This document shows, in pieces, positions 36,877 to 62,980 of a DNA stretch of 64,000 nucleotides. The stretch lies in NCBI RefSeq assembly GCF_008124525.1, contig NZ_VNHJ01000002.1, forward strand, positions 496,001-560,000, written 5' to 3'. Position numbers and translations under genes: made by a program. Each line of letters opens with the position of its first letter. Within the stretch, counting starts at the first letter, position 1. A model generated the notes under the pieces. The model saw only the letters and a list, made by a program, of their open reading frames with translations, made no database searches and was not told the origin of the DNA. The stretch is from Oceanicella actignis (GTDB taxonomy: Bacteria; Pseudomonadota; Alphaproteobacteria; Rhodobacterales; Rhodobacteraceae).

Positions 36877-37045
36877 TGAAATCAATAAATTAAACGGAAT
36901 TCCCGAGAGCCCTTCCCGCAACCGTTCCCACAATTTGCGGCGCCTCGACCCAGCGCCGGCGAGGGGTCTCAGCCCATGTCGGCTTGGGGCGCTGCCATGG
37001 GTGGAAGGTCCGAGGCGCTTTGCGGGCGGGGGCAAGGAGCGGGCT
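36877..37045 (+). repeat. island-edge direct repeat, copy 1 (next to tRNA-Ser)
   Basis: This starts 20 bases after the tRNA with aaatcaata and continues through cggaattcccgag, caatttgcggcgcctcga, agcgccggcgaggggtc, cttggggcgctgccatgg and gaaggtccgaggcgctttgc to ggcaaggagcg. The same order of blocks appears at 49091-49255 in the same orientation. The rest of the gap up to the stop of the small gene at 37164 holds nothing else I recognise. It is likely a shared end or 3' region of two related integrated elements; an actual integrase recombination site cannot be proven here. Confidence 0.75.
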
Positions 37046-45000: not shown

Positions 45001-45553
45001 GTGCGAGCGTTCCCGCGTCGCGCAGCGCGGCGAGCACGGCCATGCGCCGGTCGGGCGGCAGGATCAGCCGGATCTCTCCGCCCGCGCTGACCGCGGCGCA
45101 GGCGGAGCGCAGGGCGATCTCCTCTGCCGGATCGGCGCGCGCGCCGCCGAGCGGGCGCAGATCCTCGGGCAGAAACGCGCCGCTCAGCGCCGCCGCGCGC
45201 ATCAGCGGGCCGGGCTCGGAGCCGGGCGCCGCGTCGGGCGGGGCGGCGGCCTTGCGCGCGCGGCCGTGTCTGGGTGGCGCGGCCTTGCGCCGGGCGCCGC
45301 CGTCGGCGAGCGGGGGCGCGGCGCGCGGCGCGGCGTCCTCGCGCCGCGTCTTGCGGGGGGCGGCCGCAGCCCCGGCCGGCACCTCGGATGACGCCCCGGC
45401 CTCGGGCTCGGCCCCGGCATCGGCCCCGGCATCGGGGGCGGCCGCGGCCAGCGAGGCGATGCGCGCGGCCACGGCGCCGGCGCCGATCTTGCCCTTGGCA
45501 AGCTCGGAAATCAGCGACTGAAACGCGCTCTGGAACGCCTTCACATTCGACAC
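42026..45553 (-). CDS. STAND/NACHT-like P-loop ATPase with helical C-terminus
   Basis: A 1175-residue protein using a GTG start at 45553 behind a strong GGGAGGA ribosome site. Residues 1-40 form a helical segment (FQSAFQSLISELAKGKIGAG). Residues 40-115 are an Ala/Pro/Arg-rich linker. Residues 300-600 are an ATPase: Walker A VTGGPGSGKSALLAKFAL near 311-328, Walker B VLLLLDSLDAAL near 435, then LRVVMFGAGLDHAAEPPLL. Long helical, TPR-like regions follow to the end (GDALELLADGERAAPAIARG). This is the plan of signal-transducing STAND NTPases that sense a trigger through C-terminal repeats. It starts four bases after the trypsin-ATPase stop and overlaps the esterase start. It is probably the sensor or switch of the system (inference). 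Confidence 0.78.
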   Translation of the reverse strand: MSNVKAFQSAFQSLISELAKGKIGAGAVAARIASLAAAAPDAGADAGAEPEAGASSEVPAGAAAAPRKTRREDAAPRAAPPLADGGARRKAAPPRHGRARKAAAPPDAAPGSEPGPLMRAAALSGAFLPEDLRPLGGARADPAEEIALRSACAAVSAGGEIRLILPPDRRMAVLAALRDAGTLAQAVRAARRRREADPERDPLGRELLAFLSSHPPVARKAAAPEFPADDDRLARRLEVAEWFETADGGWPDSMSTESEALRIEAARRAERASLEALAEGFRGRRSDQLKLAGFLRRRVAVNAPPPPILAVTGGPGSGKSALLAKFALNLAERPRAEDWAVIRMDLDDPALQSADISAMSFELTRQLGHARPALEADLSALRRDARAELGAFVFADAAQRTLGRAAAYRVCGRLMRALSDALTACGAAGANSPPVLLLLDSLDAALRGSAPSEQDLRAGRELRRWLTDLTEAAGLERLRVVMFGAGLDHAAEPPLLAAEVMRLAPLDAEDAAAVIREEAQLPEAKVRELVAQLPGRADALRLGARLAAGVAARAKNAGPDGAPDAAAPEVPDGPAAAYDLQIVSLPGRELRALAALAPALRRVWPGVLRSALAPAAGLGMPDDARAAELCARLADEDWLIAGPAPGGGLALRRDLRRLALPVLEADPARAERMRMIHESAMALYEAGPEEIAPEDAEAEALYHRLMARPLDAETRAALRRGSGRLIRDADDLPDPARAALLLAAGRPMSNRLARALTGRNRARFLDARGWELVNEDRPGDALELLADGERAAPAIARGWIGQARLDLGDWDPAADADEVREADLAAMRGAEPPMLFREGAPLVRRLILGGAPEAPERALELLRRLLDQPEARFASPAARARLTGALRLALVARGGAPIPTDGPEKALVSAALAVSNLARPGSDGASSAAVVEAGQTLLLLIAAGAQGLLHPLHARAYAEPDGPPALRAALAPGQFSPDPAWISGVGAMGGPVDWKRLKQDPAPETGELLGPIARRWARRARGAPIVIDAAALNPGQAHALLRASSPELHAPARHAMAAATPDRAAYAALADAMAPRWPVAPADLAPSVFAAAAARAPLRGLSAMVEYADRSNMLPQLLEEAARQADARGARGPAAALRKTLAALERWSAPFGPPDRPASDPLSAPTQGASERYLT

Positions 45554-45557
45554 GCGA

Positions 45558-47543
45558 TCATCCTCCCGTCCCGTCGATATCGGCGTAGCTGAGCACCGAC
45601 ACGCCTAGGAATTCGGCCACATGCGCGATCCGGCTCAACCCCGGCGGGATCGACCGGGCGAGCTGCATCATCATCCGGGCCAGCTTGTTGCGCCCGCTGC
45701 GGCGGGCCGCGTCGTCCTCATGGCCGAGCGCGAGGTCGAGCGTGCGCAGCCAGTGAACGATGTCCGGCTGGGCGACCTCGGTGACCTCCTCCCACTCGAG
45801 GCCCTGCGAGGGCAGCGCGCCGAAATCCCCGCGAAAGCCCAGCAGCGCCACGCGCAACCAGTCGTCGTCGCCCTGCGCCGCCTCGCGGTAGAGCGCGTAG
45901 AGGAAATCGCGCAGCCCGCCGGTCTCGGCGATGGTGGCCTTGTCCAGATCGTCGAGCACGAGCCACAGCGGCCGCCCGCCGGCGCTCGGCGGCCGGCCCA
46001 GCCGCGCGCGCATGGCGCGCGAGAACGCCTCCATCAGCGGGCCGCGCGCCCATTGCGAGACGGTCATCCCGCTGTCGGCATGGCGCGGCAGCGCGGCGGC
46101 GGCGGCCTCGTCGCGCAGCAGCAGGCCGGCCAGCGCGATCGGGTCCATGACGTGGAAGCGGTCGTTCTCGCGCAGCACCCGGATCTCGTGATCCTCGTCG
46201 GGCAGCATCGCCTCGAGGATGCGCGCCGTGAAGCTCTTGCCGACGCCTGTCTCGCCGGTCACCACCAGGATCCGCTTGCCCTCCGGGCGCAGCGCGTCGC
46301 CGATCCAGTCCTTGGTGACGGCCCGGCCGATCAGCGGGCGGCGGCCTTCGGGGGTCGCCACGAACAGCGCCTCGGAGGCGGCCACGGCGCCGCGCGGCAG
46401 CTCCCCGGCGTGATCGAGGATGGCGTGGATCGGGACCGCGACGTTGACGCTGTTGCCCAGCGCCGCGCTGAACGCCTGCTCGCCGCCGGGCGCGTCGTCG
46501 ACGGCGCCCTGATGGATGGCGAATACGCGGAACTCGCGGTCCGTGCAGGCCCCGCCCGAGGCGCCCGGCAGCGAGTTGGCGTTGTGGCCGATGCGCGCCA
46601 GCTCGTCCACGACGCGCGAGGCCGAGCCGGCGGCGACCCGCAGCGGCGCGCCCTCGGGATGCTGGAACAGGTGGATGCGGGCGCGGTCCGCCTCCGTCCG
46701 GGGAAAGCCGCGCCGGGCGGTTTCGAAGCCGCGCGGGAAGGCCGGCGGCGCCTGTTCGAGCCGCAGGATCGCGTAGTCCAGGTGATCGGGGTCCATCCCG
46801 TCCGAGCCGCTGGCCGACACCAGCCAGTCCTCGGCCAGCGGAACCTTGCGGCCGTTGCGGATCGAGGGGGCGCCGTAGCGGAAGTCGCGCGAGTGGTTGA
46901 AGGTCGCCGTCACGTTGGCGCGCGCGCCCGGCGCCGCCTTCCAGCCGGGCGGGCCGCCGTCCGGGTTCGGCACGCTCATCAGGCAGCCCGAGCCGGCGAA
47001 GGTGTGGAAGGTCGTCAGCACCAGGTTCGGCGCGATCAGGATGCCGGTGCCGCGCTTCGCGCCGGCGTCGCCGCGGACCTCGATCAGGCAGGTGTTGGTG
47101 CGCCCCAGCTGCATCCCGCGGATGATCTGGTCGGGCTCGTCGAAGCCGACGAACACGTCCGAGAGCGCCTCGAGCCGCAAGCGGTCCTCGGGCCGGCCGG
47201 TATCGTTGAGCTGGCGGGCGATCTCGAAGAACGCGGGCGAGACGCTGACCCGCTGGCTGAGCTCGAACACGAAAGCGTTGAGAAAGCCCAGCGCGCGCGC
47301 CTGGTCCAGCGCGAAGCCGATCCGCGCGGCGACCGGCTCGTCGGTCGGGCGGCCCGCGCGCAGCACCGTCAGCGACAGGCTCGGCGCGCCGCCCTCGCGT
47401 TCGGTCTGGGCGTCGCGGAACAGCCGTTCAAGCGCGCCGGCCGGCTGGTCGGGGCTGACGCCCGCCACCAGACTGCCGCGCAGCGCCGGCCAGTCCGCGT
47501 CCGTCGGACCGACCGTCGTCGCGGCGCCGCCGTCGGGGCTCAT
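45558..47543 (-). CDS. trypsin-like protease fused to a P-loop ATPase
   Basis: A 661-residue cytosolic protein. Residues 15-115 are a small helical N-terminal domain that may be an effector-associated adaptor. Residues 150-385 are a trypsin-like protease: TGILIAPNLVLTTFHTF (His180), HLDYAILRLE (Asp256) and SLPGASGGAC (Ser329), so the triad is complete. Residues 400-661 are an ATPase with Walker A VVTGETGVGKSFTARILEAM and Walker B LWLVLDDLDKATI. The ATG at 47543 overlaps the stop of the upstream protease gene (ATGA). The fusion couples proteolysis to nucleotide-driven switching. The target is unknown; the other operon proteins are candidates. Confidence 0.82.
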   Translation of the reverse strand: MSPDGGAATTVGPTDADWPALRGSLVAGVSPDQPAGALERLFRDAQTEREGGAPSLSLTVLRAGRPTDEPVAARIGFALDQARALGFLNAFVFELSQRVSVSPAFFEIARQLNDTGRPEDRLRLEALSDVFVGFDEPDQIIRGMQLGRTNTCLIEVRGDAGAKRGTGILIAPNLVLTTFHTFAGSGCLMSVPNPDGGPPGWKAAPGARANVTATFNHSRDFRYGAPSIRNGRKVPLAEDWLVSASGSDGMDPDHLDYAILRLEQAPPAFPRGFETARRGFPRTEADRARIHLFQHPEGAPLRVAAGSASRVVDELARIGHNANSLPGASGGACTDREFRVFAIHQGAVDDAPGGEQAFSAALGNSVNVAVPIHAILDHAGELPRGAVAASEALFVATPEGRRPLIGRAVTKDWIGDALRPEGKRILVVTGETGVGKSFTARILEAMLPDEDHEIRVLRENDRFHVMDPIALAGLLLRDEAAAAALPRHADSGMTVSQWARGPLMEAFSRAMRARLGRPPSAGGRPLWLVLDDLDKATIAETGGLRDFLYALYREAAQGDDDWLRVALLGFRGDFGALPSQGLEWEEVTEVAQPDIVHWLRTLDLALGHEDDAARRSGRNKLARMMMQLARSIPPGLSRIAHVAEFLGVSVLSYADIDGTGG

Positions 47544-48697
47544 CCGCCCGGCTCCCCGGCGTCGAAGCGCAGGCCGTGCGCGCGCAGGTGGTTCTGGGCG
47601 GCGGCGATCGAATGGGCGAAGTTGCCCGCCTGCGTGACGCCGCCGATATGCAGGCCGAGCGCCAGCCGCGGCGCGCGCTCCAGGTCCGCCACGCAGGACC
47701 CCGAATTGCCCGGCAGCGTCGAGGCGTCGTAGCCGAAGATCCATTCCTTGCGCCGGTCGGTGGGCATCGTGACGGGCATCGCGTCGATCAGCCCGGGCGC
47801 CCAGCACTTGCGGCCGAGCTTGCCGCGGAACAGCTTCAGGCTCTGCGCCTCGACCGAAAGATCGCGGATGGCGATCGGGAAGCCGACCGTGCACACCCGC
47901 GCGTCCATGGCCAGCGCCGGCGGCGCGCCGAAGGCCCCCGAGACGTCCAGCGTCGGCGGCGCCGGCGGCGGATCGGCCAGGCCGGCGGCCCGCGGCGCCA
48001 GGCGCAGCAGGGCCATGTCGAGGCGCGAGAAGTCGATGCCGATGCCGATCGGCTTCGGGCCGGCCATCTCCACCGCCGTCACCGCGCGCTGGTCCGCCGA
48101 CGAGAACGCGGCCGTCGTTTCGCGCGCGAAGCGCCAGCCTCCGGCGGTTTCCTCGGCTGTGGCCTCCAGGACGTGGCGGTTGGTCATGATCAGCCCGTCG
48201 GCGACGAGAAATCCCGACCCCAGCGCCTCGTCCCCGGACGAGATCAGGCAGGCCGCCGCGGCGAGCCGGGCGATCTCGGCGCCGTGAATCACCGCCGCCC
48301 CCTGCCAGTCGCCGAGCGCGGGATCGTCGAGCGGGATCTCGTCGCCGTCCAGCGCGATGGCGGGGCGCGAGCCGTCGAACATCTGGATCGCCTCCAGCGC
48401 GCTGATGTCGGGCCCGGCGGGCGCGGCCCCCTCCACGGCGATGCGCCGGTAGGCGCGGCGCGCCGCGTCCAGCGCCGCGGCGCGGTCGGCCGGGTCGATG
48501 CCGTCGTCGGCCTGCATCGCCGCCTCGGCGACCTCGAGCGAGGCGCGGGCGAAATCCTCGTCCACGGGCGGGGGGCGCGGGCCGACCGCGGCCGACTCGA
48601 ACATCGCTTCGGGCGCGGGCCCGCGCCCGAGCGGCGCGGCGCGAGCGCGTTTCAAAACTCGCCGGAGTTCGTTCTGTCGGCGACTTGAGGGTTTCAT
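47540..48697 (-). CDS. trypsin-like serine protease (first gene of the conflict operon)
   Basis: A 385-residue protein without a signal peptide. Residues 1-130 are helical and charged (DFARASLEVAEAAMQADDGI). The protease domain has SGFLVADGLIMTNRHVLEAT (His175), DFSRLDMALLRL (Asp227) and STLPGNSGSCVADL (Ser332), a complete triad. It ends with LHIGGVTQAGNFAHSIAAAQ. The ATG at 48697 has an AAGGA site. It is the promoter-proximal gene; the next gene, another trypsin domain fused to an ATPase, overlaps it by four bases. Two different trypsin domains in one operon suggest a proteolytic relay, which is inference. Confidence 0.83.
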   Translation of the reverse strand: MKPSSRRQNELRRVLKRARAAPLGRGPAPEAMFESAAVGPRPPPVDEDFARASLEVAEAAMQADDGIDPADRAAALDAARRAYRRIAVEGAAPAGPDISALEAIQMFDGSRPAIALDGDEIPLDDPALGDWQGAAVIHGAEIARLAAAACLISSGDEALGSGFLVADGLIMTNRHVLEATAEETAGGWRFARETTAAFSSADQRAVTAVEMAGPKPIGIGIDFSRLDMALLRLAPRAAGLADPPPAPPTLDVSGAFGAPPALAMDARVCTVGFPIAIRDLSVEAQSLKLFRGKLGRKCWAPGLIDAMPVTMPTDRRKEWIFGYDASTLPGNSGSCVADLERAPRLALGLHIGGVTQAGNFAHSIAAAQNHLRAHGLRFDAGEPGG

Positions 48698-48813
48698 GCA
48701 ATCCTTGCCTCGAAGAGCCTACTTATGAATATAAATTGAACGTTCTGCGAAATACAAGATACAGAAGATCATGTTATACTGTCATAGCATTTATTTCAAT
48801 CGAGAGGCATGTT
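48698..48813. promoter_or_regulatory. AT-rich divergent promoter region
   Basis: The 116 bases between the protease gene start (minus) and the small gene start (plus) are strikingly AT-rich against GC-rich surroundings. On the plus strand TATACT at 48775-48780 is a good -10, 33 bases before the small gene's ATG, with only a weak -35 (ATACAA) 17 bases upstream. On the minus strand TTGAAA with TATAAC and a later TATATT are possible. I see no clear palindromic operator. Confidence 0.55.
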
Positions 48814-49029
48814 ATGCGCTTCCCGGATCCTTCCGCATTGCGCCGTTATCTGGCCTGCATTGACCAGGGCGACGGTTTCGAAATCGTGCTCGCCGCCGCC
48901 GATTTCTTCGCCGGCGGCGGCCCCCAAGGCGAAGCCTCCGCGGCCGAGATGATGCGCGCCCGCCAAGGGTTGGAGGGCGTCCGCGCCGGGGCCGAGCCGG
49001 ACCGCCACATACACAGTCCATGTATCTGA
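48814..49029 (+). CDS. small orphan protein divergent from the conflict operon
   Basis: A 71-residue frame starting MRFPDPSALRRYLACIDQGD, then FEIVLAAADFFAGGG and a Glu/Arg-rich helix, ending HIHSPCI. The ATG at 48814 has a GAGAGG site and an AT-rich promoter region with TATACT upstream. The last residues differ in character from the rest, and the gene ends close to the second island-edge repeat, so its 3' end may be truncated. No family is recognised. Its position suggests it could be a regulator or partner of the protease/ATPase operon. Confidence 0.5.
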   Translation: MRFPDPSALRRYLACIDQGDGFEIVLAAADFFAGGGPQGEASAAEMMRARQGLEGVRAGAEPDRHIHSPCI

Positions 49030-49090
49030 TTGGTAACGAATTTTCGTTTTCAGTCCCCAACCCACCGCCGCAGCGCCGAAAATTTTTCAC

Positions 49091-49255
49091 CAAATCAATA
49101 GCGTACGCGGAATCTTCGAGCACCGTTCCCACAAGCGTTTCCGCAATTTGCTGCGCCTCGAAGCAGCGCCGGCGAGGGGTCGCGGCCCAAATCGGCCTTG
49201 GGGCGCCGCCATGGATGGGAGGTCCGAGGCGCTTTGCGGGCGGGGCAAGGAGCGA
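49091..49255 (+). repeat. island-edge direct repeat, copy 2
   Basis: It starts aaatcaatagcgtacgcgga and continues caatttgctgcgcctcga, agcgccggcgaggggtc, cttggggcgccgccatgg, gaggtccgaggcgctttgc and ggcaaggagcg. These are the same blocks, order and orientation as 36877-37045, with small insertions and substitutions. It lies about 60 bases after the small orphan gene and marks a second element end about 12.2 kb from the first copy. Confidence 0.75.
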
Positions 49256-49664
49256 GCGAAATATCGCCGTTCATGCGAAGGCGGCTTGGGGCGCTGGTTT
49301 CTCGGGCAAGGCTTGCAGGATTTCACCCCCCCCAGGCGCGATCGGGCGCGCGGCTGGCGGCGCCTTCCCCGATGTTCAAAACCCCCAAAAACCCCAAAAA
49401 CCCCGTCGCCTTCCCCCGAGCGCCCAATCGCGCGCTCGGCCATGGCGCGCCAGCGGCTCACGCCGCTTCCTCCACGATCAGAGGGTTGACCGCCTGGCGG
49501 CGCGACGGCCGCCCCTGGGCCCCGTCGCTGTCCTGCGCGGCGCCGGGGCAAGGCGTCGATCCGGGGGGCTGGAGGTCGACGCCCCGTGACTCGCTCGCCC
49601 CCGAGCGAGGAAAACCCCCTTCTCGCACTCGCTCTCGATAGGCGTCCGTCCTGCTGCGGGTCGT
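49256..49664. other. gene-poor stretch with probable remnants of island genes
   Basis: No intact gene is supported. At 49376-49404 there is a C/A-rich run (caaaacccccaaaaacccca) which on the minus strand reads GDGVFGVFGGFEHRG, similar in style to the low-complexity small genes beside DUF3987 genes. A minus-strand frame ending at 49458 reads GRPSRRQAVNPLIVEEAA before its stop and looks like a leftover C-terminus. Both suggest a decayed second island copy, matching the repeat just before it. Confidence 0.45.
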
Positions 49665-52600
49665 TCAAAGCTCGATCTTCGAACGTCCTTCCCCTTCCGC
49701 TGGCGGCGCGGCGCCTTGCGGTTTTGCGCGGAGGGTCTTGAGATAGGCGTGGCCGTAGGTCTTCGGGTCCTGCAGGACGAAGATGATCTCGATTCCGACA
49801 TCCTCGGGTCTTGAGGTCGGTCCTGAGGCGGGGCGGGTCCGCATCTCGACGGTGAGGCCGGGACCGCACGCGCCGCGCAGCTCCGACTCCAGCTGGCTTA
49901 ACGCAGCTGCGCCGTTCGTGGCGGCCTGCTCGCCCAAACTCGAGAGCCGATACGATCCCGGACCCGGGAAATAGCGGTTCTCGACGAACGCCCCCCTTTG
50001 GGACGCGCCGCTTTCGAAGGCCCAGATCCCGGTCTGATGACTCATGGAAATGTCGAGACAGCCGCCCTCCGGCTTGAAGGCCGACCAGATGAACGATATG
50101 CGGCCGTGGCCGTTGGCCTTTGTCTCGACGGGCGCGCCGTATTTCCCCTCGAGCTGGGTCTTCAACGAAGCGGCGTCGATCGTTCCCGCCGGCAGGCGCA
50201 GCATCCGCCAGATCGCCATGACCCGGTCGGGGGCCGCGGGCGGCTCGTTGTAGATGGCGATCAACTCGGTCTCGTCGTCCGAGACGAAAAGCTTGCCCGA
50301 GGAATACGGCTCGGGCGCGCCGGCGATCGCCTTCGTCTGCATCGCGCGATCCGCCGTCAGAACCTCGCCCGAGGGCAACCTTTTCCGAATGGCCGCCTCG
50401 GCTTCGGAAAATGGCATCCCCAGCGTCAGCCCGACGACGTCCCAGGCATCGGCCCGGGGCGGCTCGGCCTCCTTCAGCGCGTCGAGGGGCAATGGCGGAG
50501 GCGGCGCCAGCGCAAGCTCCTCGACCAGCGCGCCGCTCCGGTCGATGATCCGCGCCGACAGGGCCTTCGCCTCCCAGCGCAGGGCTCCCGTCGGCGCGCG
50601 GGGGCGCTCGCCTTCGGCGAAGAGGCCGCGAAAGCCTCGGTCGATGCCGGCGTTCATGGCGAAGGGCCTTGCGGCGCGAATGGCGGCTTGCCATGCGGTG
50701 TCGGGCCAGGTCTCGAGCTGTTCGACGCCGGTGATCTCCAGCTCGATGGACAGCGAAGCGCCGGGCAGGGTCCCGTGGCGCTGCGGATCGATCCGCGGCG
50801 TCCGGTCAAGCCGGACGAGATCGGTCGGCATGATGACCTGTCCGTATGCGTCGGTTTCCACGAGGCCGGCGAACTTCATCGCGTCCGCCATGTTCCTGCA
50901 ATAGAAATCGCCGCCGCACGCGCCGCGGGGGCCGCGCGGCCGAGACGGCGTCCGCGCGCCCGCGAAGGGGGCGTCGGCTTCGAGAAAGAGGTGATCGTCC
51001 GGAACGTTCCACGCCTTGCGCAGGTAATCGCACAGCATGGCGCCGGCCACGGCCTTGCGGGTTCCGGCCTGATGGCTCCGCGCCATGTTGCGGCACGCAG
51101 ATTTCAGCTGCGCGCCGGAATCTCCACGCCGGATGAAGCTCGAAATCCCGGCATGCAGAGGCAGATTGACGGTCAGGCGGGTCGGAACGGCCTTGGCCCG
51201 CGCCATGGTCCATGCCTTGAAGGTCGGCAGTTGGGCCGCGACCGCATCGGCGTCGAGCCGGTCGTCGGCCGCGACGAAGAACCTGCCCCATTCCGGCTCC
51301 TGCCCGCGCTGGGACAGCCGGCGTTCATAGGAATGCCGCGACAGCATCATCCGTGTGTAGTGACGATCATCGAGACTCTCGGGCAGCATCCTGACGTGCA
51401 GAAGGTCGGTGATCTCGGCGGTCATCGGCGCGCCGGGCGGCGGTGGCGACAGCGGCAGCTCGGCCGCCGAACGAGGCGCGCTGGCGGCTTGCTCTTCGGC
51501 CTGGGTCGGCCGCGTCGAGAAATCGAAGTCGGCAAGGACCGCGCCGTCCGACTTCCAGCGGAGCACGACCCGCTTGAGATCGGCTTCGATGATGGCGACG
51601 CCGGCCTCCGCAAGCCGCACATCGGCGACGTCGAGGATGACCTCCGCCTCGATCTCGTCCCTGCGTGCGCCGCCTCCGAAGCCGCGGCGGACCGCCTCTT
51701 CCACGGGCAGGTCGAGGACGTCTTCGCGCAGCGTCTTGTCGAGAAGGAATGCGGTCTGGAACAGCCCGTCCGCGACGAACGCGCCGAAGAGGGGCGGCCG
51801 ATCTTGGGCGGCGCGTCGGGCGCCGAAATCGAGCATCGCCGGAACGAAGATCCTGCCGTCCTTCGCGCCCGACTGCGATTGCCAGGCCGCCGGCGGTCCG
51901 TAGTGGACCTTCAGCTTGCCGTCATGCGCGGTGTAATGAGCCGAGGTCGTCGAGCGGAGCGAGACCTGCATGGGCAGGCGCAGGCTCGCCTTGCCGAGCG
52001 CCGCCAGCAGGGCGTCGCGATGCCGCGACACGACGACCGCAGGGGGGCGGTCGCGGATCTCGGAAAGCGGGAGCGGCAGGTCGGACGGCGGCCGCCCCGA
52101 GGCGATCAAGGATTGCGCCTGTCTTACGGCGTGTTCGAGCCTTTGATAGACGCGCGCCTCGTCATCGATCCGGGAGATCAGCGGCAGGACCATGCGTGTC
52201 GCAAGCTCCGGCGTCAGCGGTTGGACGCCGCCTTGCGCCGGGACGGCGGCATCCTCTTGCGGCGTGGAGTCAGGGCGCCGGACGACGCCAAGCGTCTCGC
52301 CGCTTTCGGCGCTGCGGAATTCGACCGACACGATCTTGCCGGGAAGGGGGCCGGGGCCCTGAGTCTCGCGCGGCCCGAACCTGACCCGCGCGACGACGGC
52401 GACGCTGCGCACGCCGGCGGCCAGGATCGCGCGCGCCTTGTCCTCGGCGATCGGCAGCGTCGCGGCCCAGGGCGCGCCGTCGTGGCGGACATGCAGCCCG
52501 TCCAGGTTCAGCCATTGCCCGCCCCCGCCGCCGCCGTTCAGCCGCGCCAGGTGGCGCGCCGCCAGCGTCGTGATGCCGAGCAGGTTCATCTTGCAGCCGG

Positions 52601-54641
52601 TGACGACGTCGCCCGCAAGCGCAAACGCGCCTGGCTCGACGACGCCCTGGATCCAGCTCGACCATTCGAACGTGAAGGCCTGCCGCGCGAAGTCGTATTG
52701 GCCGAGCGGCATTGGGCGTTCGATCGCGAACTCCCGTTCAAAGGGACCGTTCGCCGCTTCGATCTCGGGCAAGGCCGCCTCGAAACGCCTGGCCGCCTGC
52801 GCAAGGTGGTCGCGGATCGCGAACTGGTCGTTGGATCTGATGATGCCCCGCGTTCGCCGGCATGTCTCCTCGTCGTTGTCGGCGGCTTCGAGCACGAGGC
52901 CGTTCAACTCCGGCGCGCGACGGTATGCGTCGAGATCGGAGCGGAATGCGATCAACGCGTAATCGCGGATCGTGCCCTCCGCCACGCCGTCTTGCGGAGC
53001 GGGCGGCTCGGGGGACGCCTCGTGCAGCAGGGCGCCGGTCTGGCCGTCGTGGATCCGCACGGCCAGAACCCTGGCGGGCAAGGCGGCGAAGGGATTGACG
53101 GGTCCCGCAAGCTCGACCGCCAACGCGATGTTGACGAACGGCGCCGCCGAACTGGCCCGGTATCGTTCGACAAGGGCCTGCGCCTGCGCAGGCGCCATCG
53201 GAAGAAACGCTTTCGCGTCAAGCGGCTCGATGCTGGCTTCGAGGTAGGGAAGGCGGGTTCTGTTCAGCCTCGCGCCTGATTCTCCGAGAGATTGCAGGAT
53301 CCGGCCGATCGCGTAACTGCCGGCCTTGGTGCAGGGCGGCGCCTCGGCGTCACGCTCGGCAAGGCGCATCCTGACGGCGCGCAACCTGGTGTCTGCGGCC
53401 CCCAGGAAGGGCGCATTGTTGATCGGAAATCCCGACGACGCGAAATCGTAGGGCCCGAGAGAACTTCTCACATGAAGGACATGCGTCGCCCTCTTCGGCT
53501 TGGCCGAAGCGGCGGCGAGCGCCGACCGGAACTCCGGCGTCCAGCGATCGAGCGTGGCGCGCGCAAGGAAGGCGTCGGCGGCCATGGCCTCGATCTCTCG
53601 GGCGAGCGAGGCGCAGGTCGCCGGGTCCGCGGTCGCCAGCTTGTGGTCGATGACCGCGGCGGGCCCGAGATCAAGGTAAGCCCGAGCGTGGTCCTGAAGA
53701 GCGAGCGCCACGGCGGCTGCGTAGTCGCTGGAGGCGGCGAAAGGTTGTTCGGCGTTCGCATCGGAGCCAACGGCCGACGCGCCGCGCGCGGTCAGGGCCG
53801 TCGATGATGCGCCGCCTGGCCGCGACGCCTGCGCGCCGACGCCGGCCGTCGCGGCCAGCGTCGCAATCCGCTCTTCCATCCGCATGCCGATGCACGAAGC
53901 GTCGGCGCCGCACCGGTCGCGTCGCGTCAGCCACGCCTGCTGCTCGGCGCGAAGGGCGCCCGCGCGGGCGGCCCCGGCGCCGGCGATCGCATCGCCGTAA
54001 AGGCGCGTCAGTTCAAGGTCGCGCGCGGCAAGGCGGGGATCGGCGCATATGGCGCGTTCGGACAGCGTGGCCGCGCGCGTGCAATCGAAGCTCGGGCCAA
54101 GCGCCGCAGCGCCCGCCGAAGGCTTGCCGGCGCGCGATGCGAGATTGTAAGCCGTCTGCACGGCCGCTGCGGTCGCCTTGTTCGCGGCGCCCGTCCGGGC
54201 AAGCCCATTGTCTCGCTGAAACGCGATGATGGCCCTGCGGGTCCTTGGACCCATCGCGCCGTCGACAGGACCGGGATCGTATCCCAGTTCGGCAAGCTGC
54301 GCCTGGATTCGCGCCACCGTGGCGCGATCCGCGCCGGAGCGCGCGGCGTCCGGCTGGCGCTGCTCTTGCGCCTTTCTGGCTCTGGGCGCCGGCTTCTCGG
54401 TCTGTTGTCGGCGATTGATCCTTTGCTGGCGATCGATCTCCTGAAGAATGATCCCGACGCCGCCTCGCAGCAGGTCGTTCAGCTCTTGCGCATTGGCCGC
54501 GCTCCTGGGGCCGAGCGCGCCGAAGGCGCCGGCCGCGAAGACCGCCGCCGCCAGGCCTGGCCGAAGCCAGCGACCCATGGCATTTCCGGCGGTCAAATTG
54601 CTGCGATAATTGCGCTTCTTGTTTCCCTTGAGCCCAAACAT
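49665..54641 (-). CDS. large exported multidomain protein: peptidoglycan-binding, LprI-like and repeated unknown modules
   Basis: A 1658-residue protein if translated from ATG 54641 (AGGGAG upstream); ATG 54578 is an alternative nearer the signal peptide WLRPGLAAAVFAAGAFGALG. Residues 107-155 are a peptidoglycan-binding domain (ATVARIQAQLAELGYDPGPV, then MGPRTRRAIIAFQRDNGL). Residues 185-262 are LprI-like (DCTRAATLSERAICADPRLA). Two related beta-rich modules follow, opened by LGPYDFASSGFP near 397 and LGQYDFARQAFTFEW near 648 (DUF4852-like). A further module near 1430 has DVVGLTLGMPFSEAEAAIRK. It is probably periplasmic and cell-wall-bound. Base composition looks less GC-rich than its neighbours. 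Its function is unknown. Confidence 0.72.
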   Translation of the reverse strand: MFGLKGNKKRNYRSNLTAGNAMGRWLRPGLAAAVFAAGAFGALGPRSAANAQELNDLLRGGVGIILQEIDRQQRINRRQQTEKPAPRARKAQEQRQPDAARSGADRATVARIQAQLAELGYDPGPVDGAMGPRTRRAIIAFQRDNGLARTGAANKATAAAVQTAYNLASRAGKPSAGAAALGPSFDCTRAATLSERAICADPRLAARDLELTRLYGDAIAGAGAARAGALRAEQQAWLTRRDRCGADASCIGMRMEERIATLAATAGVGAQASRPGGASSTALTARGASAVGSDANAEQPFAASSDYAAAVALALQDHARAYLDLGPAAVIDHKLATADPATCASLAREIEAMAADAFLARATLDRWTPEFRSALAAASAKPKRATHVLHVRSSLGPYDFASSGFPINNAPFLGAADTRLRAVRMRLAERDAEAPPCTKAGSYAIGRILQSLGESGARLNRTRLPYLEASIEPLDAKAFLPMAPAQAQALVERYRASSAAPFVNIALAVELAGPVNPFAALPARVLAVRIHDGQTGALLHEASPEPPAPQDGVAEGTIRDYALIAFRSDLDAYRRAPELNGLVLEAADNDEETCRRTRGIIRSNDQFAIRDHLAQAARRFEAALPEIEAANGPFEREFAIERPMPLGQYDFARQAFTFEWSSWIQGVVEPGAFALAGDVVTGCKMNLLGITTLAARHLARLNGGGGGGQWLNLDGLHVRHDGAPWAATLPIAEDKARAILAAGVRSVAVVARVRFGPRETQGPGPLPGKIVSVEFRSAESGETLGVVRRPDSTPQEDAAVPAQGGVQPLTPELATRMVLPLISRIDDEARVYQRLEHAVRQAQSLIASGRPPSDLPLPLSEIRDRPPAVVVSRHRDALLAALGKASLRLPMQVSLRSTTSAHYTAHDGKLKVHYGPPAAWQSQSGAKDGRIFVPAMLDFGARRAAQDRPPLFGAFVADGLFQTAFLLDKTLREDVLDLPVEEAVRRGFGGGARRDEIEAEVILDVADVRLAEAGVAIIEADLKRVVLRWKSDGAVLADFDFSTRPTQAEEQAASAPRSAAELPLSPPPPGAPMTAEITDLLHVRMLPESLDDRHYTRMMLSRHSYERRLSQRGQEPEWGRFFVAADDRLDADAVAAQLPTFKAWTMARAKAVPTRLTVNLPLHAGISSFIRRGDSGAQLKSACRNMARSHQAGTRKAVAGAMLCDYLRKAWNVPDDHLFLEADAPFAGARTPSRPRGPRGACGGDFYCRNMADAMKFAGLVETDAYGQVIMPTDLVRLDRTPRIDPQRHGTLPGASLSIELEITGVEQLETWPDTAWQAAIRAARPFAMNAGIDRGFRGLFAEGERPRAPTGALRWEAKALSARIIDRSGALVEELALAPPPPLPLDALKEAEPPRADAWDVVGLTLGMPFSEAEAAIRKRLPSGEVLTADRAMQTKAIAGAPEPYSSGKLFVSDDETELIAIYNEPPAAPDRVMAIWRMLRLPAGTIDAASLKTQLEGKYGAPVETKANGHGRISFIWSAFKPEGGCLDISMSHQTGIWAFESGASQRGAFVENRYFPGPGSYRLSSLGEQAATNGAAALSQLESELRGACGPGLTVEMRTRPASGPTSRPEDVGIEIIFVLQDPKTYGHAYLKTLRAKPQGAAPPAEGEGRSKIEL

Positions 54642-54986
54642 CCGACCGTCTCCCTGATTTCGATGCAGAAAGAAAGCCGGTGCATGGCAAGCAAAAAGAA
54701 CTATAAAATATAATTTTAATTGATTACTTGTCTGTGCGTCAATTTTGGCGCCAGGCCGGTTCATCTCGGCCCGTCAGGCCCATCGGCGCAAGACGCCTCG
54801 CAGGAAAGCTGGTTCCGGCGACCGGGGCGCTGGGCGATGCCCGTCGCCGCGCAAGGCGATGCGGGGCAGCCGGCGCGGATTTCCTGCGGCGCATCTTGCG
54901 CGCGCTTGCGCAAGCGGCGGGGCGGCGCAAGGCGCGGGCGGGCTGGCCCATGTCGGGGCGGCGCTGGCCGTGGTCGCGCGACCGTT
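54642..54986. other. intergenic stretch with an AT-rich promoter zone
   Basis: Bases 54690-54735 are strongly AT-rich (ctataaaatataattttaat), about 50-95 bases upstream of the large exported protein's start, and probably carry its minus-strand promoter. The remaining roughly 250 bases up to the lrgB stop are GC-rich with no gene or terminator I can support. Confidence 0.5.
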
Positions 54987-55703
54987 TCAGATGAGCCACG
55001 ACACCAAAAGCGGCACGAGCAGGCTGGTCAGCAACGCGTTCAACGCCATGCCGACGCCGGCATAGGCCCCGGCCGTTTCGTTGACCTGGAACGCGCGCGC
55101 CGTGCCGATCCCGTGCGCAGCCACGCCGACGGCGAATCCGCGCGCCCGCCAGTCGCGTATGCGCAGCAGGTTCATCAGCGGCGTGACGATCACGGCCCCG
55201 ATGACCCCCGTCAGGATGACCAGGACAGCCGTCAGGCCGGGAATGCCGCCCACCGCCTCGGATATGCCGATCGCAACCGGGGCGGTGGTGGATTTGGGGC
55301 TCAGCGACAGGATGACCGGCTCGGGCAGGCCGAACGCCTGCGCGAGCGCAACCGCGGAAAGGACGGCGACCGACGAACCCACGATCAGCGCCAGCAGGAT
55401 CGGCGCCGCGAGGCGGCGGATCGTGCCGCGATTGTCGAAAAGCGGCGCCGCCAGCGAGACCGTGGCGGGGCCGAGCAGAAAGTGGATGAACTGCGCGCCC
55501 TCGAAATAGCTGTCGTAGTCGGTTCCGCCAAGCCACAGAACCGTGGCGATGATGCACACCGAGACGAGCACGGGGTTCGCCAGGGGCGAATGGCGCAGGG
55601 CGCGGGACAGGATCGAAGCGCCCAGAAAGGCAAGAAGCGTGACCGTGAGCCAGGTCAGCGGCGCCGCGGCCAGGTAGCTCCACAAGGCGGGCGAGCCGCT
55701 CAT
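54987..55703 (-). CDS. lrgB: LrgB/CidB family membrane protein
   Basis: A 238-residue membrane protein with many helices and the LrgB core: GAQFIHFLLGPATVSLAAPL near 70, SLSPKSTTAPVAIGISEAVG near 135, and FAVGVAAHGIGTARAFQVNE near 190. The family was linked to murein hydrolase control and, more recently, to export of small metabolites such as glycolate or pyruvate. Its ATG overlaps the lrgA stop. The metabolite here is unknown. Confidence 0.93.
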   Translation of the reverse strand: MSGSPALWSYLAAAPLTWLTVTLLAFLGASILSRALRHSPLANPVLVSVCIIATVLWLGGTDYDSYFEGAQFIHFLLGPATVSLAAPLFDNRGTIRRLAAPILLALIVGSSVAVLSAVALAQAFGLPEPVILSLSPKSTTAPVAIGISEAVGGIPGLTAVLVILTGVIGAVIVTPLMNLLRIRDWRARGFAVGVAAHGIGTARAFQVNETAGAYAGVGMALNALLTSLLVPLLVSWLI

Positions 55704-56053
55704 GCCTCGTCTCGCCGCAAAAGCCGCAGCGCGGCCAGGAATGCGCCGACCGCGGCCAGCATCGCAAGCACGGTCGAGAGCGCCAGAACCGCGAGGATCG
55801 CCGGCCAGTCCGCCGACAGAACGTCGAGATTGGCCACGACGCCGACGCCGGCCGGCACGAAGAACAGCGACAGGTTCGCAAGAGTGATCGCCGCCGTCGG
55901 CCGGATCGTTTCGATCAGCGAAGGCCTCGCGACCAGCAAGGCCAACAGCATGGCCAGGCCGACGACGGGCCCCGGCATCGGCAGACCGGCGCCGCGCGTG
56001 ACCAGCTCTCCCGCCAATTGACAGGTCAGAAGCAGGCTCAGAGCTGACAGCAT
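55700..56053 (-). CDS. lrgA: LrgA/CidA family holin-like membrane protein
   Basis: A 117-residue protein with about four helices: ALSLLLTCQLAGELVTR, LPMPGPVVGLAMLLALLVAR, AAITLANLSLFFVPAGVGVV and a last helix before the RRDEA end. PMPGPVVGLAMLL and LFFVPAGVGV are the family marks. The ATG at 56053 is used, although its ribosome site is weak; an in-frame TTG four codons earlier has a better-spaced AAAGG. It overlaps lrgB. The 266 bases upstream, to the coxF-like stop, show nothing else. Confidence 0.9.
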   Translation of the reverse strand: MLSALSLLLTCQLAGELVTRGAGLPMPGPVVGLAMLLALLVARPSLIETIRPTAAITLANLSLFFVPAGVGVVANLDVLSADWPAILAVLALSTVLAMLAAVGAFLAALRLLRRDEA

Positions 56054-56319
56054 GCGCGGCGCCAAGACCAGGCCTTTCGACGGAAATTCCGATCCGGCGG
56101 CAGTATCGCGCCGGCCGCGGACGACTTCAACGGCGGCGTGCGCCGCGTCAGCCTTGACGCCGGCATGGGCGCCCGAGCGCGCGTCGGCGAGGCGGGAGCC
56201 GCATCCGGCTTTCGTTTTCTTCGGCGGCGCGGGCCGCTCAAGGCCGAAGGCCGTCGGAAGTTCGGCGCCGGCTGCGCGAGGGTGGGCGCGGTCGTGTCGG
56301 GCGCCTGCGCGGCGCCGGG

Positions 56320-57081
56320 TCAGGCCGTGCGTTCGCCGCGCGCCGCGGCCTTTCCCGCGGCGTTGCGCCAGGCGATGACCTCGGCAAGGATCGAGACGGC
56401 GATCTCGTGCGGATCGACCGCCCCGATGTCGAGGCCCGCGGGCGACTTGAGCCGCTCGAGGCGCGCGCGCTCCATGCCGGCGGCGGCAAGCTTGTCGCAC
56501 AGCGCCCTGGCCTTTCGCCGGCTCGCCACCATCGAGACATGGGCCGCCGGGCTTTCCAGCGCGGCCCTGAGCGCGTCGCCGTCGCCCGCGCCCTGGGTCG
56601 CGACCACGACGAAATCGCCCGCCTCGGCCTCGCCGATCGCCTCGCCGCCCAGGGCGCGCAGGCCCGCAAGCGCCGCGTGCTCGCGCAGGGCGGCGGCGAT
56701 CGGCCCGTCGCCGAACACGATGAGGCGCGGCGGCAGCCGCCAGGGCTCGATGAGAATGTCCACCGTCCCGCCCGAGGGGCAGCCGCTCTTGAAGGTCTGC
56801 ACGCCGTCGGGATCGGCCAGGCCCACGACCTTGTCCGAGGGGTTGACGCGGATCACCCTGGGCGCGCCGCGCTCGAGCGCCTCGGCCGCGGCGGCGCGGA
56901 CCGCGCGCTGCACGCAGGCCCCGCCGAGATGGCCGATGATCGCGCCCTCGGCGGTGACGGCGGCCTTGGCGCCGGCCTTGGCCGAAGTGGCGTCGGCGGT
57001 GCGCAGCACCGTCGCCACGCAAAACGGCGCGCCCTTGCGGCGCAGCGCCATGATCTCGTCGAAGATGTCCTGGCGGGGCAT
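56320..57081 (-). CDS. coxF: XdhC/CoxF family molybdenum-cofactor maturation protein
   Basis: A 253-residue protein of the XdhC/CoxI group. It has PFCVATVLRTADATSAKAGA near 20, HLGGACVQRAVRAAAAEAL near 47, SGCPSGGTVDILIEPWRLPP near 97 and a Rossmann-type C-terminus. These proteins bind molybdopterin cofactor and help to sulfurate and insert it into the hydroxylase. It is the last gene of the cox run, 13 bases after coxE. The symbol follows position in the cluster; coxF and coxI are similar families. The ATG at 57081 has a GGGAGGA site. Confidence 0.85.
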   Translation of the reverse strand: MPRQDIFDEIMALRRKGAPFCVATVLRTADATSAKAGAKAAVTAEGAIIGHLGGACVQRAVRAAAAEALERGAPRVIRVNPSDKVVGLADPDGVQTFKSGCPSGGTVDILIEPWRLPPRLIVFGDGPIAAALREHAALAGLRALGGEAIGEAEAGDFVVVATQGAGDGDALRAALESPAAHVSMVASRRKARALCDKLAAAGMERARLERLKSPAGLDIGAVDPHEIAVSILAEVIAWRNAAGKAAARGERTA

Positions 57082-57094
57082 GGGGTCCTCCCTC

Positions 57095-58276
57095 TCACAG
57101 CCGCGAGAATTCGTCTTCCAGCGCGGCCAGCGCCTCGAGCGTGTTGGCGGGCAGCGCGGCATCGAGATGCGGGCGGGCGGCGGCCATGGCGCGCGCTGCG
57201 GGGGCGTGCTCGCGCCAGCCGCCCAGCGGGTTGAGCCAGACCACGCGGCGCGCCTTGCGCCTGAGCTGCGCCATCGCCGCGCCGAGGCGTTCGGGCGGCG
57301 AGGTGCAGTAGCCGTCCGAGACGATCATCACCAGCGTGCGGCGGCCCAGCGCCCGGGCGCCGTGGCCCTGCATGAAGCGCTCGAGACAGCCGGAAATGTC
57401 GGTGCCGCCGCCGAAGCCCTCGGCCATGAGCGAAAGCCGCGACGCCGCGCGCAGCGTGTCGTGATCGCGCAGGGCGTCGGTGACGCGCATCAGCCGCGTG
57501 TGGAAAAGATAGGCGTCGGCGTCGGCCGCGCCCACAAGCCCGCGCAGAAAGGCCAGAAAGACGCGGGCATGCACGCTCATCGAGCCGGAAACGTCGAGCA
57601 GCGCCACGATCCGCATGGGTCGGGGCGGGCGGGCGCGGCGGTGCAGCTCCAGCGGCTCGCCGCCGCGCGCGAGGCTCTTGCGCATGATCCGCCGCATGTC
57701 CAGCGCCTGACCCCGCGCGGCGGCCCTGCGGCGGCGCGACAGCCGGTCGCGGATCGCGCGGGCCAGGGCCAGGGCGGCGGCCTCGGCGCGGGCCAGGCTT
57801 TCCTCGTCCATCAGTTCGCGCAGGTCGCGGCGCAGAAGGTTCTGCGCGCGCGTGGCGACGAGGCGCCCCTCGGCGCCCTGCGCGTCGCCCGCGCCGCCGT
57901 CGGCCTCGTCCGGCTCGGCGCCGGCGCCGTCGTCCTGGCGCTGCTCGAAATGGGGCTGCCACAGCTTCGGCCGCGCGGCTTGCGCGCGCGGGCGCGGCGC
58001 GGGGGCGTTGCGCGTGCGGGCGCGCCCGTCGTTGAACCAGTAGGCGTCGAACAACTGGTCGAAGCGGCGCCATTCCTCGGCGTCGCCGGCCAGAAGCGCG
58101 GCCAGCGCCATGCGCGCCTGGGCCGCGTCGGTCGCCTCGACGGCCGCAAGCGCGGCCAGCGCGTCGATGGTCTCGCGCGGGCCGAGCGACAGCCCGTTCA
58201 TGCGCAGATGGGCGATGAAGCCGGCCATGCGGTCGGCGATCCCCTCGGCGCGGGCGGGAAAGCGGGTGGCGCGCAT
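57095..58276 (-). CDS. coxE: CoxE family von Willebrand factor A protein
   Basis: A 393-residue protein with a C-terminal VWA domain. The MIDAS motif is in IVALLDVSGSMSVHARVFLA near 237, with LMAEGFGGGTDISGCLERFM and MIVSDGYCTSP after it. The N-terminal half is helical and Arg/Ala-rich. CoxE works with the MoxR ATPase CoxD to mature the [CuSMoO2] centre of CO dehydrogenase. Its ATG shares a base with the coxD stop (TGATG). Confidence 0.93.
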   Translation of the reverse strand: MRATRFPARAEGIADRMAGFIAHLRMNGLSLGPRETIDALAALAAVEATDAAQARMALAALLAGDAEEWRRFDQLFDAYWFNDGRARTRNAPAPRPRAQAARPKLWQPHFEQRQDDGAGAEPDEADGGAGDAQGAEGRLVATRAQNLLRRDLRELMDEESLARAEAAALALARAIRDRLSRRRRAAARGQALDMRRIMRKSLARGGEPLELHRRARPPRPMRIVALLDVSGSMSVHARVFLAFLRGLVGAADADAYLFHTRLMRVTDALRDHDTLRAASRLSLMAEGFGGGTDISGCLERFMQGHGARALGRRTLVMIVSDGYCTSPPERLGAAMAQLRRKARRVVWLNPLGGWREHAPAARAMAAARPHLDAALPANTLEALAALEDEFSRL

Positions 58277-59142
58277 CAGGCCACCTTTCCGATCAGGCGG
58301 TCCATCACCTCGGGCGGGGCGGCGGTCGCGTCGGCGGCGGTCTTGAGCAGGCAGACGAGGGTGGCCTGGACCTCTTCGCGCGCGCGGGCAAGGTCGTTGA
58401 CGCCAAGCCCCGCAAGGGCCGCGGCCCAGTCGAGCATCTCGGCGACGCCGGGGGTCTTTTCCAGCTCTTCGCGCCGCAGCGCCTGCACCACGCCGACGAT
58501 CTGGCGGGCCAGCCTGGCCTCGATGTCCGGCATGCGCGCGCGCAGGATGGCCAGCTCGGTCTCGCGGTCGGGGTAGTCGATGAAGGTGTAAAGGCAGCGC
58601 CGGCGCAGCGCGTCCGACAAATCGCGCGTGCCGTTGGCGGTCAGGATCGCCAGGGGCCGCGAGCGGGCGCGGATGGGGCCGATCTCGGGAATGGTGATCT
58701 GGAAGTCGGAGAGGATCTCGAGCAGATAGGCCTCGAATTCCTCGTCGGCGCGGTCGATCTCGTCGATGAGCAGAACGGGGGGCTTCTCGCGGCTGATGGC
58801 CTCGAGCAGGGGGCGGCGCATCAGATACGCCTCCGAGAACAGCGCCGCTTCGTCGAGGCCGCCGCGCGCCTCGGCGGCGCGGATGGCCAGAAGCTGGCGC
58901 TGGTAGTTCCATTCGTAGATGGCGTGGCTGGCGTCGAGCCCCTCGTAGCACTGAAGCCGGATCAGCTCGGTCTCCATCGCCCCGGCCATGGCGCGGGCGA
59001 CCTCGGTCTTGCCCACCCCGGCGGGGCCTTCCAGAAGCAGCGGCCGGCCAAGGCTTTGCGCCAGGTGCAGCGCCATGGCCAGCCGGTCGTCGGCGACGTA
59101 GCCCTGGCGGGCCAGCGCCGTCTGAAGCGTCGCGATGCTCAC
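58276..59142 (-). CDS. coxD: MoxR-type AAA+ ATPase (CoxD)
   Basis: A 288-residue AAA+ ATPase: Walker A LLLEGPAGVGKTEVARAMAG near 36, Walker B VLLIDEIDRADEEFEAYLLE near 122, sensor I ILTANGTRDLSDALRRRCL near 168. In carboxidotrophs CoxD is a membrane-bound chaperone-like ATPase needed for copper-sulfur insertion into CoxL. It follows coxL by 81 bases and overlaps coxE. Confidence 0.93.
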   Translation of the reverse strand: MSIATLQTALARQGYVADDRLAMALHLAQSLGRPLLLEGPAGVGKTEVARAMAGAMETELIRLQCYEGLDASHAIYEWNYQRQLLAIRAAEARGGLDEAALFSEAYLMRRPLLEAISREKPPVLLIDEIDRADEEFEAYLLEILSDFQITIPEIGPIRARSRPLAILTANGTRDLSDALRRRCLYTFIDYPDRETELAILRARMPDIEARLARQIVGVVQALRREELEKTPGVAEMLDWAAALAGLGVNDLARAREEVQATLVCLLKTAADATAAPPEVMDRLIGKVA

Positions 59143-59223
59143 TTGCGTCGTCCTCCATTGCCCTTGCGCGGCGCGCCGGGGCGGATCGGCCCGGCGCGCA
59201 GGCGCCGGGCCGGCGGGCCGGGA

Positions 59224-61640
<2,417 letters not shown>

Positions 61641-61644
<4 letters not shown>

Positions 61645-62135
61645 TGCGCGGCCTCCTTCGCGGCGTTGAGCTCGGCCGCCGCCGCCATGATCGCCTTGAC
61701 GATGTTCTGATATCCGGTGCAGCGGCACAGATTGCCGGCGATGCCGAAGCGGACCTCCTCTTCGGTCGGGTTCGGGTTCTCCTGCAAGAGCCTGTGCGCG
61801 CGCGTGATCATGCCCGGCGTGCAGAAGCCGCATTGCAGGCCGTGATGCTCGCGGAACTTCTCCTGGATGACGCCGAGCGAGCCGTCGGGGTTGGTCAGCC
61901 CCTCGACCGTGACGATCTCGGCGCCGTTGGCCTGGGCGACGAAGACGGTGCAGGACTTGACCGAGCGGCCGTCCATGTCGACCGTGCAGGCGCCGCAATG
62001 GCTGGTCTCGCAGCCGATATGAGGGCCGGTGATCCCGAGCTCTTCGCGCAGGAAGTGGACGAGCAGCATCCGCGGCTCGGCAAGGCCCTCGACCTGGCGG
62101 CCGTTGACCTTGAGCTTGACGTGCATCTTCGACAT
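61641..62135 (-). CDS. coxS: CO dehydrogenase small subunit, 2x[2Fe-2S]
   Basis: A 164-residue iron-sulfur subunit. The plant-type cluster is in [20 protein letters not shown] plus a following Cys near 63, and the second cluster in [19 protein letters not shown] with [15 protein letters not shown]. It carries electrons from the molybdenum site to the FAD of CoxM. The ATG at 62135 has GGGAGGA upstream, and the gene overlaps coxL by four bases. Confidence 0.97.
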
Positions 62136-62146
62136 CTGGTCCTCCC

Positions 62147-62980
62147 TCAGGCGCGGCGCGCCTGCGCGCGCGCGATCGCCCGGCGCAGCGCCGCGGCGGC
62201 GGCATGTTTCTTGAACGCGACCGGGCCGCGGTTGTCCTCGGCGGGGTCGATGGCCTCGAGCATGGCGGCGACGCAGCCCTCGACGTCGCCGGCGGCCAGC
62301 GCCCGGCCCGCCGCTTCGCACCAGACGGGCGTGTCGGCGAGGTTGGTCATGGCGACCGAGGCGAAGCCCTCGCCCAGCATCACCGCGGCGGCGGCGGTGG
62401 CGTAGTCGCCGATCTTGCGCTTGATCTTCTCATAGGCCCAGCCCGCGCCGGCCGGCGGGCGCGGAACGATGACGCGGGTCAGGATCTCGTCGTCCTCGCG
62501 CGCGGTGAAGTAGGCCGACTCGTAGAACTCGCGCGCCGCGACCTCGCGCTCGCCGCCGGGGCCGACCAGCGCGAAGCGTGCGTCGAGGCACTGCATCAGC
62601 CCGGGCATGTCGTTGCCCGGATCGCCGTTGGCGAGGTTGCCGCCGATCGTGCCCATGCTGCGCACCTGCGGGTCGGCGATCTGCAGCGCCGCCTCGCGGA
62701 TGATCGGCAGGGCCTGCGCCAGCCCCTCATGGGCGATCAGATCGTGCTGGGCGACCATGGCGCCGATGACGACGGCGTCGTCGCCGATCTCGATCCGCCC
62801 GAGCTCGGCGATGCCCCGCAGGTCGACGAGATGGGCGGGCGCGGCCATTCTGAGCTTCATCATCGGGATCAGGCTGTGCCCGCCGGCCAGCACGCGCGCC
62901 TCGTCGCCGTGCCGGCCGAGGATGGCGACCGCCGACGCCACATCCGTCGGCCGGTGATACTCGAACCCGGCTGGTATCAT
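62147..62980 (-). CDS. coxM: CO dehydrogenase medium subunit, FAD-binding
   Basis: A 277-residue flavoprotein. It begins [19 protein letters not shown], with [20 protein letters not shown] near 32 and [20 protein letters not shown] near 108, the two FAD-binding motifs. It accepts electrons from CoxS and delivers them to the quinone pool. The ATG at 62980 has GGGAGGAC upstream; an in-frame ATG 38 codons earlier lacks a ribosome site. It is the first structural gene of the cox run, 11 bases before coxS. Confidence 0.95.

Follow-up and report, generated by a model that had tools for sequence, protein, structure and literature searches.

C-terminal sorting signals of the helix-plus-basic-tail type consist of a motif, then a transmembrane helix and then a basic end. 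Carboxyl ends are also read by PDZ domains: the PDZ domain of AlgW binds the C-terminus of MucE and has extra sites for charged residues that lie ahead of the hydrophobic end, as far as the accessible part of the report describes it (PMC8545111). ScwA of Salmonella is a periplasmic LprI protein with two disulphides that affects the levels of wall hydrolases, and the portion of the source available to us gives it no role in lysozyme resistance (PMC7933661); an LprI domain is thus a weak guide to function. The gene analysed here, from Oceanicella actignis, encodes a protein in which an LprI-like domain is combined with further modules and with a C-terminal domain (CTD) that ends in a conserved carboxyl tail. 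This conserved carboxyl end is a new observation and the most surprising feature of the family, and it was missed by an earlier reading made from the letters alone (the sequence-only reading). The family is unreported among the matches listed in literature searches on LprI, C-terminal sorting within Rhodobacterales and alphaproteobacterial PDZ tails, and no paper under the name DUF4852 was found in the open-licence literature.

The window is the whole stretch of 64,000 nucleotides that was analysed (contig NZ_VNHJ01000002.1), and its features are collected in Table 1. The sequence-only reading had proposed an exported protein of 1658 residues, in agreement with the unbroken ORF on the minus strand and the predicted signal peptide. 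The ATG start at 54641 is preceded by AGGGAG; an alternative in-frame ATG lies upstream at 54764 and would give a protein of 1699 aa. An AT-rich promoter had also been proposed, and sigma-70-like boxes do lie in an AT-rich stretch as a consensus match only, 2 such sites being found against 0.1 expected in shuffles. G+C content is 66-71% in the six 1-kb intervals spanning the gene (49001-55000). Of the remaining 58 intervals, 45 are at 71% or above and 13 are lower (minimum 66%), so that the gene is on the low side of its surroundings, as had been claimed, but is not unique in the window. The third-position G+C of the gene is 0.82, and it is at least 0.90 in 31 of 43 other ORFs delimited by a crude ORF caller.

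Table 1. Positions of the gene, its encoded parts and neighbouring features in the window
Feature	Position	Strand	Basis
Whole gene, exported modular protein, 1658 aa	49665..54641	-	single intact ORF
Sigma-70-like promoter, TTGACG-18-TAAAAT, AT-rich stretch	54713..54742	-	consensus match only
Signal peptide, residues 1-51, predicted	54489..54641	-	own reading and hydropathy
PG_binding_1, residues 107-160	54162..54323	-	Pfam 1.1e-15
LprI-like domain, residues 187-256, cysteines 187, 199, 244, 250	53874..54083	-	Pfam 1.6e-4
Module A, DUF4852-like, residues 316-560, Cys343 and Cys437	52962..53696	-	leave-out profile
Module B, DUF4852-like, residues 571-800, Cys594 and Cys683	52242..52931	-	leave-out profile
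Unclassified, residues 815-1060	51462..52199	-	module profile 1.2-1.8 bits only
Further conserved segment, residues 1066-1170	51132..51446	-	common to G075, G972, G773, G787
CTD, residues 1397-1642, Cys1528 and Cys1592, absent from Pfam	49716..50453	-	leave-out profile
C-terminal tail KIEL, residues 1655-1658	49668..49679	-	reading of protein ends
LrgB, upstream neighbour	54987..55703	-	
Right copy of island-bounding direct repeat	49092..49254	.	
Left copy of direct repeat, 22 bp after tRNA-Ser 36769-36856	36879..37041	.	

Export and wall attachment of the window protein are well supported as predictions, because it has a signal peptide, a PG_binding_1 domain and cysteine pairs. Together with the other domains and the relatives, these features back the earlier description of a multi-domain, exported and probably wall-associated protein. 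The hydrophobic core of the signal peptide starts at residue 30, and the cleavage-like site is ANA-QE. PG_binding_1 (PF01471) scores 58 bits, above its curated cut-off of 23, and LprI (PF07007) scores 22.4 bits, marginally above its cut-off of 22; NCBIfam matches are restricted to the peptidoglycan-binding part and are far under their cut-offs. The 14 cysteines of the protein form seven neighbouring pairs, with one pair per module and one in the CTD, a pattern that fits an oxidising compartment. In the 26 family members that define the set, Pfam matched PG_binding_1 in 9 and LprI in 5 (E 0.01). Because 17 members have no PG_binding_1 match, one of them (G982) being cut at its start, wall binding does not characterise the family as a whole. 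A crude test found a hydrophobic stretch within the first 90 residues of 23 of the 26 members; that of G951 is not a clear signal peptide.

For the region after the LprI-like domain, the sequence-only reading had claimed duplicated, unknown and beta-rich modules. The duplication holds, since alignment shows 25% identity between modules A and B and both are matched by a profile built without the window protein. The module alignment was based on 22 seed stretches around the Y-D-F motif, and its profile also recovered copies outside these seeds. A profile from which the window and the DUF4852 rows had been left out matches the window protein at residues 347-430 (20.7 bits) and 604-659 (15.7 bits), against 6.3 bits for the best of 200 shuffles. 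The same profile matches the DUF4852 protein of genome G699 at 17.4 bits (best of 200 shuffles, 5.8). Since leave-out profiles join the window modules to this DUF4852 lipoprotein, the modules are remotely DUF4852-like: relatives of DUF4852 (PF16144) and not filed members. None reaches the curated DUF4852 cut-off, and the remote likeness takes away part of the claim that the modules are unknown. DUF4852 is the only recurring Pfam family, found in 5 of 25 modules with every match below cut-off; separate searches gave 15.3, 17.5 and 18.3 bits against the curated cut-off of 22.8. In the window protein the match, also below cut-off, is at residues 603-662, and when ten member genomes were searched with DUF4852, the window gene was the DUF4852 match in its genome. 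Only one DUF4852 member above the cut-off was found in 299 genomes, that of G699. The beta-rich character was not established, because the two structure models have a mean pLDDT of 40-41 and are too poor for use. PDB sequence searches with the module profile and with the CTD profile gave nothing below E 0.3. The two cysteines of each window module are similarly spaced; of 23 modules of other members, seven have a close cysteine pair instead and sixteen have no pair. Residues 815-1060 are perhaps a decayed third module, on a very weak profile match. The conserved segment that follows is 39% identical to that of G075, and its other sharers come from profile matches.

The C-terminal module had been read as separate, and a profile built without the window protein confirms this, matching residues 1400-1642 at 105 bits. 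Pfam searches of the 26 CTDs found no family matching more than one of them. Each CTD has exactly two cysteines in 24 of the 26 members and three in the other 2. The CTD terminates long proteins, and it also accounts for the greater part of short proteins of exported appearance, about 280-310 aa in length (281-312 aa in G900, G945, G046, G968, G850 and G979). Despite their kinship, the CTDs are strongly diverged among members: in the CTD tree the median end branch is 1.16 changes per column and little is resolved. A weak CTD match (iE 1.7e-4) was also found in a membrane-type protein of G865, which has no tail.

In contrast to the CTD body, which is 17-30% identical to the window row, the tail is constant. 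All 26 members end in a hydrophobic residue or Pro, a charged residue and Leu or Phe, directly followed by the stop codon, a pattern seen in 0 of the 230 closed control ORFs that were taken from these loci. The controls were called crudely by codon-position G+C and not taken from annotation; 12 of 242 run off the contig or locus end, so the 230 closed ones were used. When the last 30 residues of each protein were shuffled, the pattern appeared in 1.06%. A charge at position -4 as well is seen in 20 of the 26 members and in 0 of the 230 controls, and the loose form without the charge in 26 of 26 members versus 6 of 230 controls (4 of 67 exported-like controls). Since the pattern was defined on the 26-member set, it is the eight members read later, G864 and G005 among them, that provide a fair test. 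Seven of these eight fit the pattern, with the reservation that G675, G691 and G759 belong to one genus, have near-identical ends and are hardly independent; G618, from outside the class, ends in KPTL and fails the strict form. G894 alone among the 25 non-window rows was found via a match that reaches the last columns, and for the second copy of G046 the profile match extends to within two columns of the end. The tailless G865 and G106, whose frame is broken, were left out of the 26; G106 ends in VAGP in the matched frame and in EIEV in another. The pattern is found overall in 33 of 36 proteins (the 26, the eight later ones, G106 and G865), and a hydrophobic-x-[LF] carboxyl end in 34 of 36 versus 6 of 230 controls, counts that are not independent events because the members are related. 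At the G106 locus (L088, 3247-8100), the apparent break in the family gene may be due to decay or to a sequencing error.

The last CTD cysteine lies at a fairly constant distance from the protein end, 42-66 residues in the 26 members, as if a fixed reach were needed. Such constancy would suit a tail that has no partner and simply forms the final, conserved strand of the CTD or stabilises it. However, the stretch just before the tail is variable and rich in Ala, Glu, Pro and Gly, and the structure model places the end in coil, though its low pLDDT makes the model untrustworthy; we consider a partnerless end unlikely. Alternatively, the CTD and tail may be a sorting signal, recognised by a machinery that delivers exported proteins of variable make-up into the outer membrane or onto it. 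C-terminal domains play such a role in other systems, the same end is carried by very different N-terminal parts and by the short proteins as well, and the tail is more constant than the domain before it. Unlike the helix-plus-basic-tail signals, however, 0 of 26 members have a transmembrane-like stretch within the last 60 residues and only 2 (G140 and G323) have a basic end, and no sorting-enzyme gene recurs nearby. Moreover, among the few candidates scored per genome there is usually one match (two in G214 and G046), fewer than would be expected of a general signal. These points make a sorting signal improbable to us.

The family is patchily distributed and sometimes lies beside mobile genes. 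With the own genome included each time, the 1358 residues after LprI matched in 3 of 195 relatives; at class level, a profile of the C-terminal 270 residues matched in 6 of 385 genomes; a seven-row profile built on the final 600 residues matched in 24 of 394 same-family genomes; and across the phylum a 26-row CTD profile matched in 8 of 398 genomes, including one from another class. Since few candidates were scored per genome, this spread is a lower bound. The sequence-only reading had named a core gene fixed at a syntenic position across Rhodobacterales as the finding that would speak against it. We reject such a core gene on the same-family count and because lrgB occurs elsewhere without it: lrgB is present in 14 of 60 other relatives, in differing 1.5-kb flanks that lack the family gene. 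The bacterial family label is not clustered on the CTD tree (5 changes, shuffled mean 5.5, with 3 forced by starred branches), which fits transfer and old paralogues alike. The family gene of G986 and the M15 gene beside it are flanked by two IS240-type transposase genes, one of them partial, and a phage-type integrase gene adjoins that of G787. A close relative of the G900 stand-alone CTD protein, at 90% identity, is WP_076620626.1, encoded on the Phaeobacter inhibens plasmid pDOK1-1-2 (NZ_CP019309). G900 belongs to the same bacterial family as the window genome, which would place both in or near Rhodobacterales. The 1358-aa part had no match in phage and plasmid collections. Pattern scans confirmed no relative in GTDB contigs, searched with parts of the window protein, or in viral contigs, searched with these parts, the DUF4852 protein and the G900 stand-alone CTD, but such scans need short exact peptide patterns and these absences weigh little.

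At the loci of the long genes, no neighbour recurs in more than two. In both G075 and G986, the gene immediately upstream is co-oriented and encodes an M15_4 D-Ala-D-Ala carboxypeptidase, the two ORFs overlapping by 4 bp (the TTG start in G075 was assigned mechanically); unrelated neighbours also recur in pairs, for example a transporter-like gene in L080 and L086. In G150 (L037, 4891-11149), two large proteins of 961 and 929 aa adjoin the family gene; the 929-aa protein has peptidoglycan-binding matches only and the 961-aa protein no Pfam match at 0.1. Next to the stand-alone CTD genes of G900, G945, G046 and G968 lie members of a common gene family, whose G900 member has no Pfam match at E 0.001. 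At the corresponding position of the Phaeobacter copy is a gene annotated as metallophosphoesterase, presumably of the same family. In this Phaeobacter locus (L116, 4085-12371), the stand-alone CTD gene lies between the genes of an AAA ATPase and the metallophosphoesterase, and genes annotated as LprI and Fic are near it.

The LprI gene near the Phaeobacter copy, the LprI matches in 5 of the 26 members and the holin-like LrgAB genes that adjoin the gene in the window (an LrgA domain is in the ORF at 55700-57022) would all suit self-protection, with the protein as a wall-bound inhibitor of lysozyme-like attack and LprI as its active part. We regard this as quite unlikely: LprI is barely over its cut-off in the window protein and unmatched in the other 21 members at E 0.01, lrgB is not adjacent to a family gene in the 14 other genomes, and ScwA, an LprI protein, has no role in lysozyme resistance in the part of the report at hand (PMC7933661).

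On its downstream side, the gene faces an island bounded by a direct repeat whose two copies are 83.5% identical over 164 columns; no further full copy was found in the genome. The sequence-only reading had placed the gene near the island edge and proposed recent gain. The gene is indeed close, but the right repeat copy ends at 49254, about 410 bp before the stop codon, and the gene is thus just outside. Arrival inside the island was rejected on this ground, and recent gain is not borne out. The two repeat copies enclose a DDE_3 transposase, an LCAT-type lipase-like gene, two AAA_16-domain genes, one also with a trypsin-like domain, and a further trypsin-like ORF. The island (36857-49254), which lies beside tRNA-Ser and whose AAA_16 domains are STAND-like, is likely a conflict or defence cluster, although PADLOC gives only weak mad8 and LmuA matches in it. 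On the other side of the gene, 56320-63961 holds a molybdenum-hydroxylase cluster (CO/xanthine-dehydrogenase type) that includes XdhC and an AAA_5 ATPase; an MHYT-LytTR regulator comes next.

Action on competitors or phages at the cell surface, as a surface effector or anti-phage factor, was the role suggested by the sequence-only reading. The patchy spread, the IS240-type transposases around G986, the integrase beside G787 and the AAA_16 and trypsin-like cluster downstream in the window would be in line with it. The Pfam scans, however, found no toxin or nuclease domain, no PADLOC family matched at E 0.1, the long protein was unmatched in the phage, plasmid and viral searches described above, and the AAA_16 and trypsin-like cluster is inside the repeat-bounded island whereas the gene is outside. 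We consider this role very unlikely.

The reading that we tentatively prefer, while giving it somewhat less than an even chance, is that the protein is exported, anchored to peptidoglycan and works as a periplasmic scaffold, its CTD and tail docking on a partner in the envelope and helping to control wall enzymes. The signal peptide would export the protein, and PG_binding_1, judged from its family, would hold it on the wall. LprI and the DUF4852-like modules may form a variable part that binds ligands or enzymes. The CTD with its hydrophobic-charged-[Leu/Phe] end would be the constant part, docking by its free end on the envelope partner; an unchanging end joined to modules that vary is suggestive of an adaptor. 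By analogy with OMP and MucE ends on DegS and AlgW, the most plausible partner is a protease or chaperone of the periplasm that offers a PDZ-type pocket, an idea drawn from the shape of the tail. The likely job of the protein may be to position or regulate wall-cutting enzymes, as the M15 neighbours, LprI and the ScwA precedent suggest. A wider possibility, which we find doubtful, is an undescribed carboxyl-end code for docking or sorting in these bacteria: a CTD family that moves between genomes and is joined to changing wall-facing modules would have its free hydrophobic-charged-[Leu/Phe] end read by one conserved envelope receptor. A single pattern kept in the last three residues, on a CTD that is absent from Pfam and drifts to about 17-30% identity, points to a strong interaction of the carboxyl end. 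Identification of the reader of the tail would assign a role to these scattered large envelope proteins and to the DUF4852-like modules.

Compared with known systems, the window protein resembles several in part. It shares with DUF4852 (PF16144) a helical stretch followed by the L-x2-Y-D-F-x4-F signature, but the G699 member is, in our own reading, a single-module lipoprotein type without CTD or tail. Like M. tuberculosis LprI and Salmonella ScwA, insofar as the consulted part of the ScwA report describes that protein (PMC7933661), it is predicted to be exported with an LprI-type domain, but LprI is only a minor, barely scoring part of its 1658 aa. It has the clear domain of PG_binding_1 wall proteins (PF01471), but no catalytic wall domain was found in it. 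From the activators of HtrA-type proteases (OMP C-termini, MucE), the CTD family differs in the middle tail residue, which is charged in 33 of 36 members, in an end that follows a folded domain and in a PDZ partner that is only putative. In common with these activators, to the extent covered by the available text (PMC8545111), its members appear to be exported and bear a hydrophobic-x-hydrophobic end of the kind that PDZ domains read.
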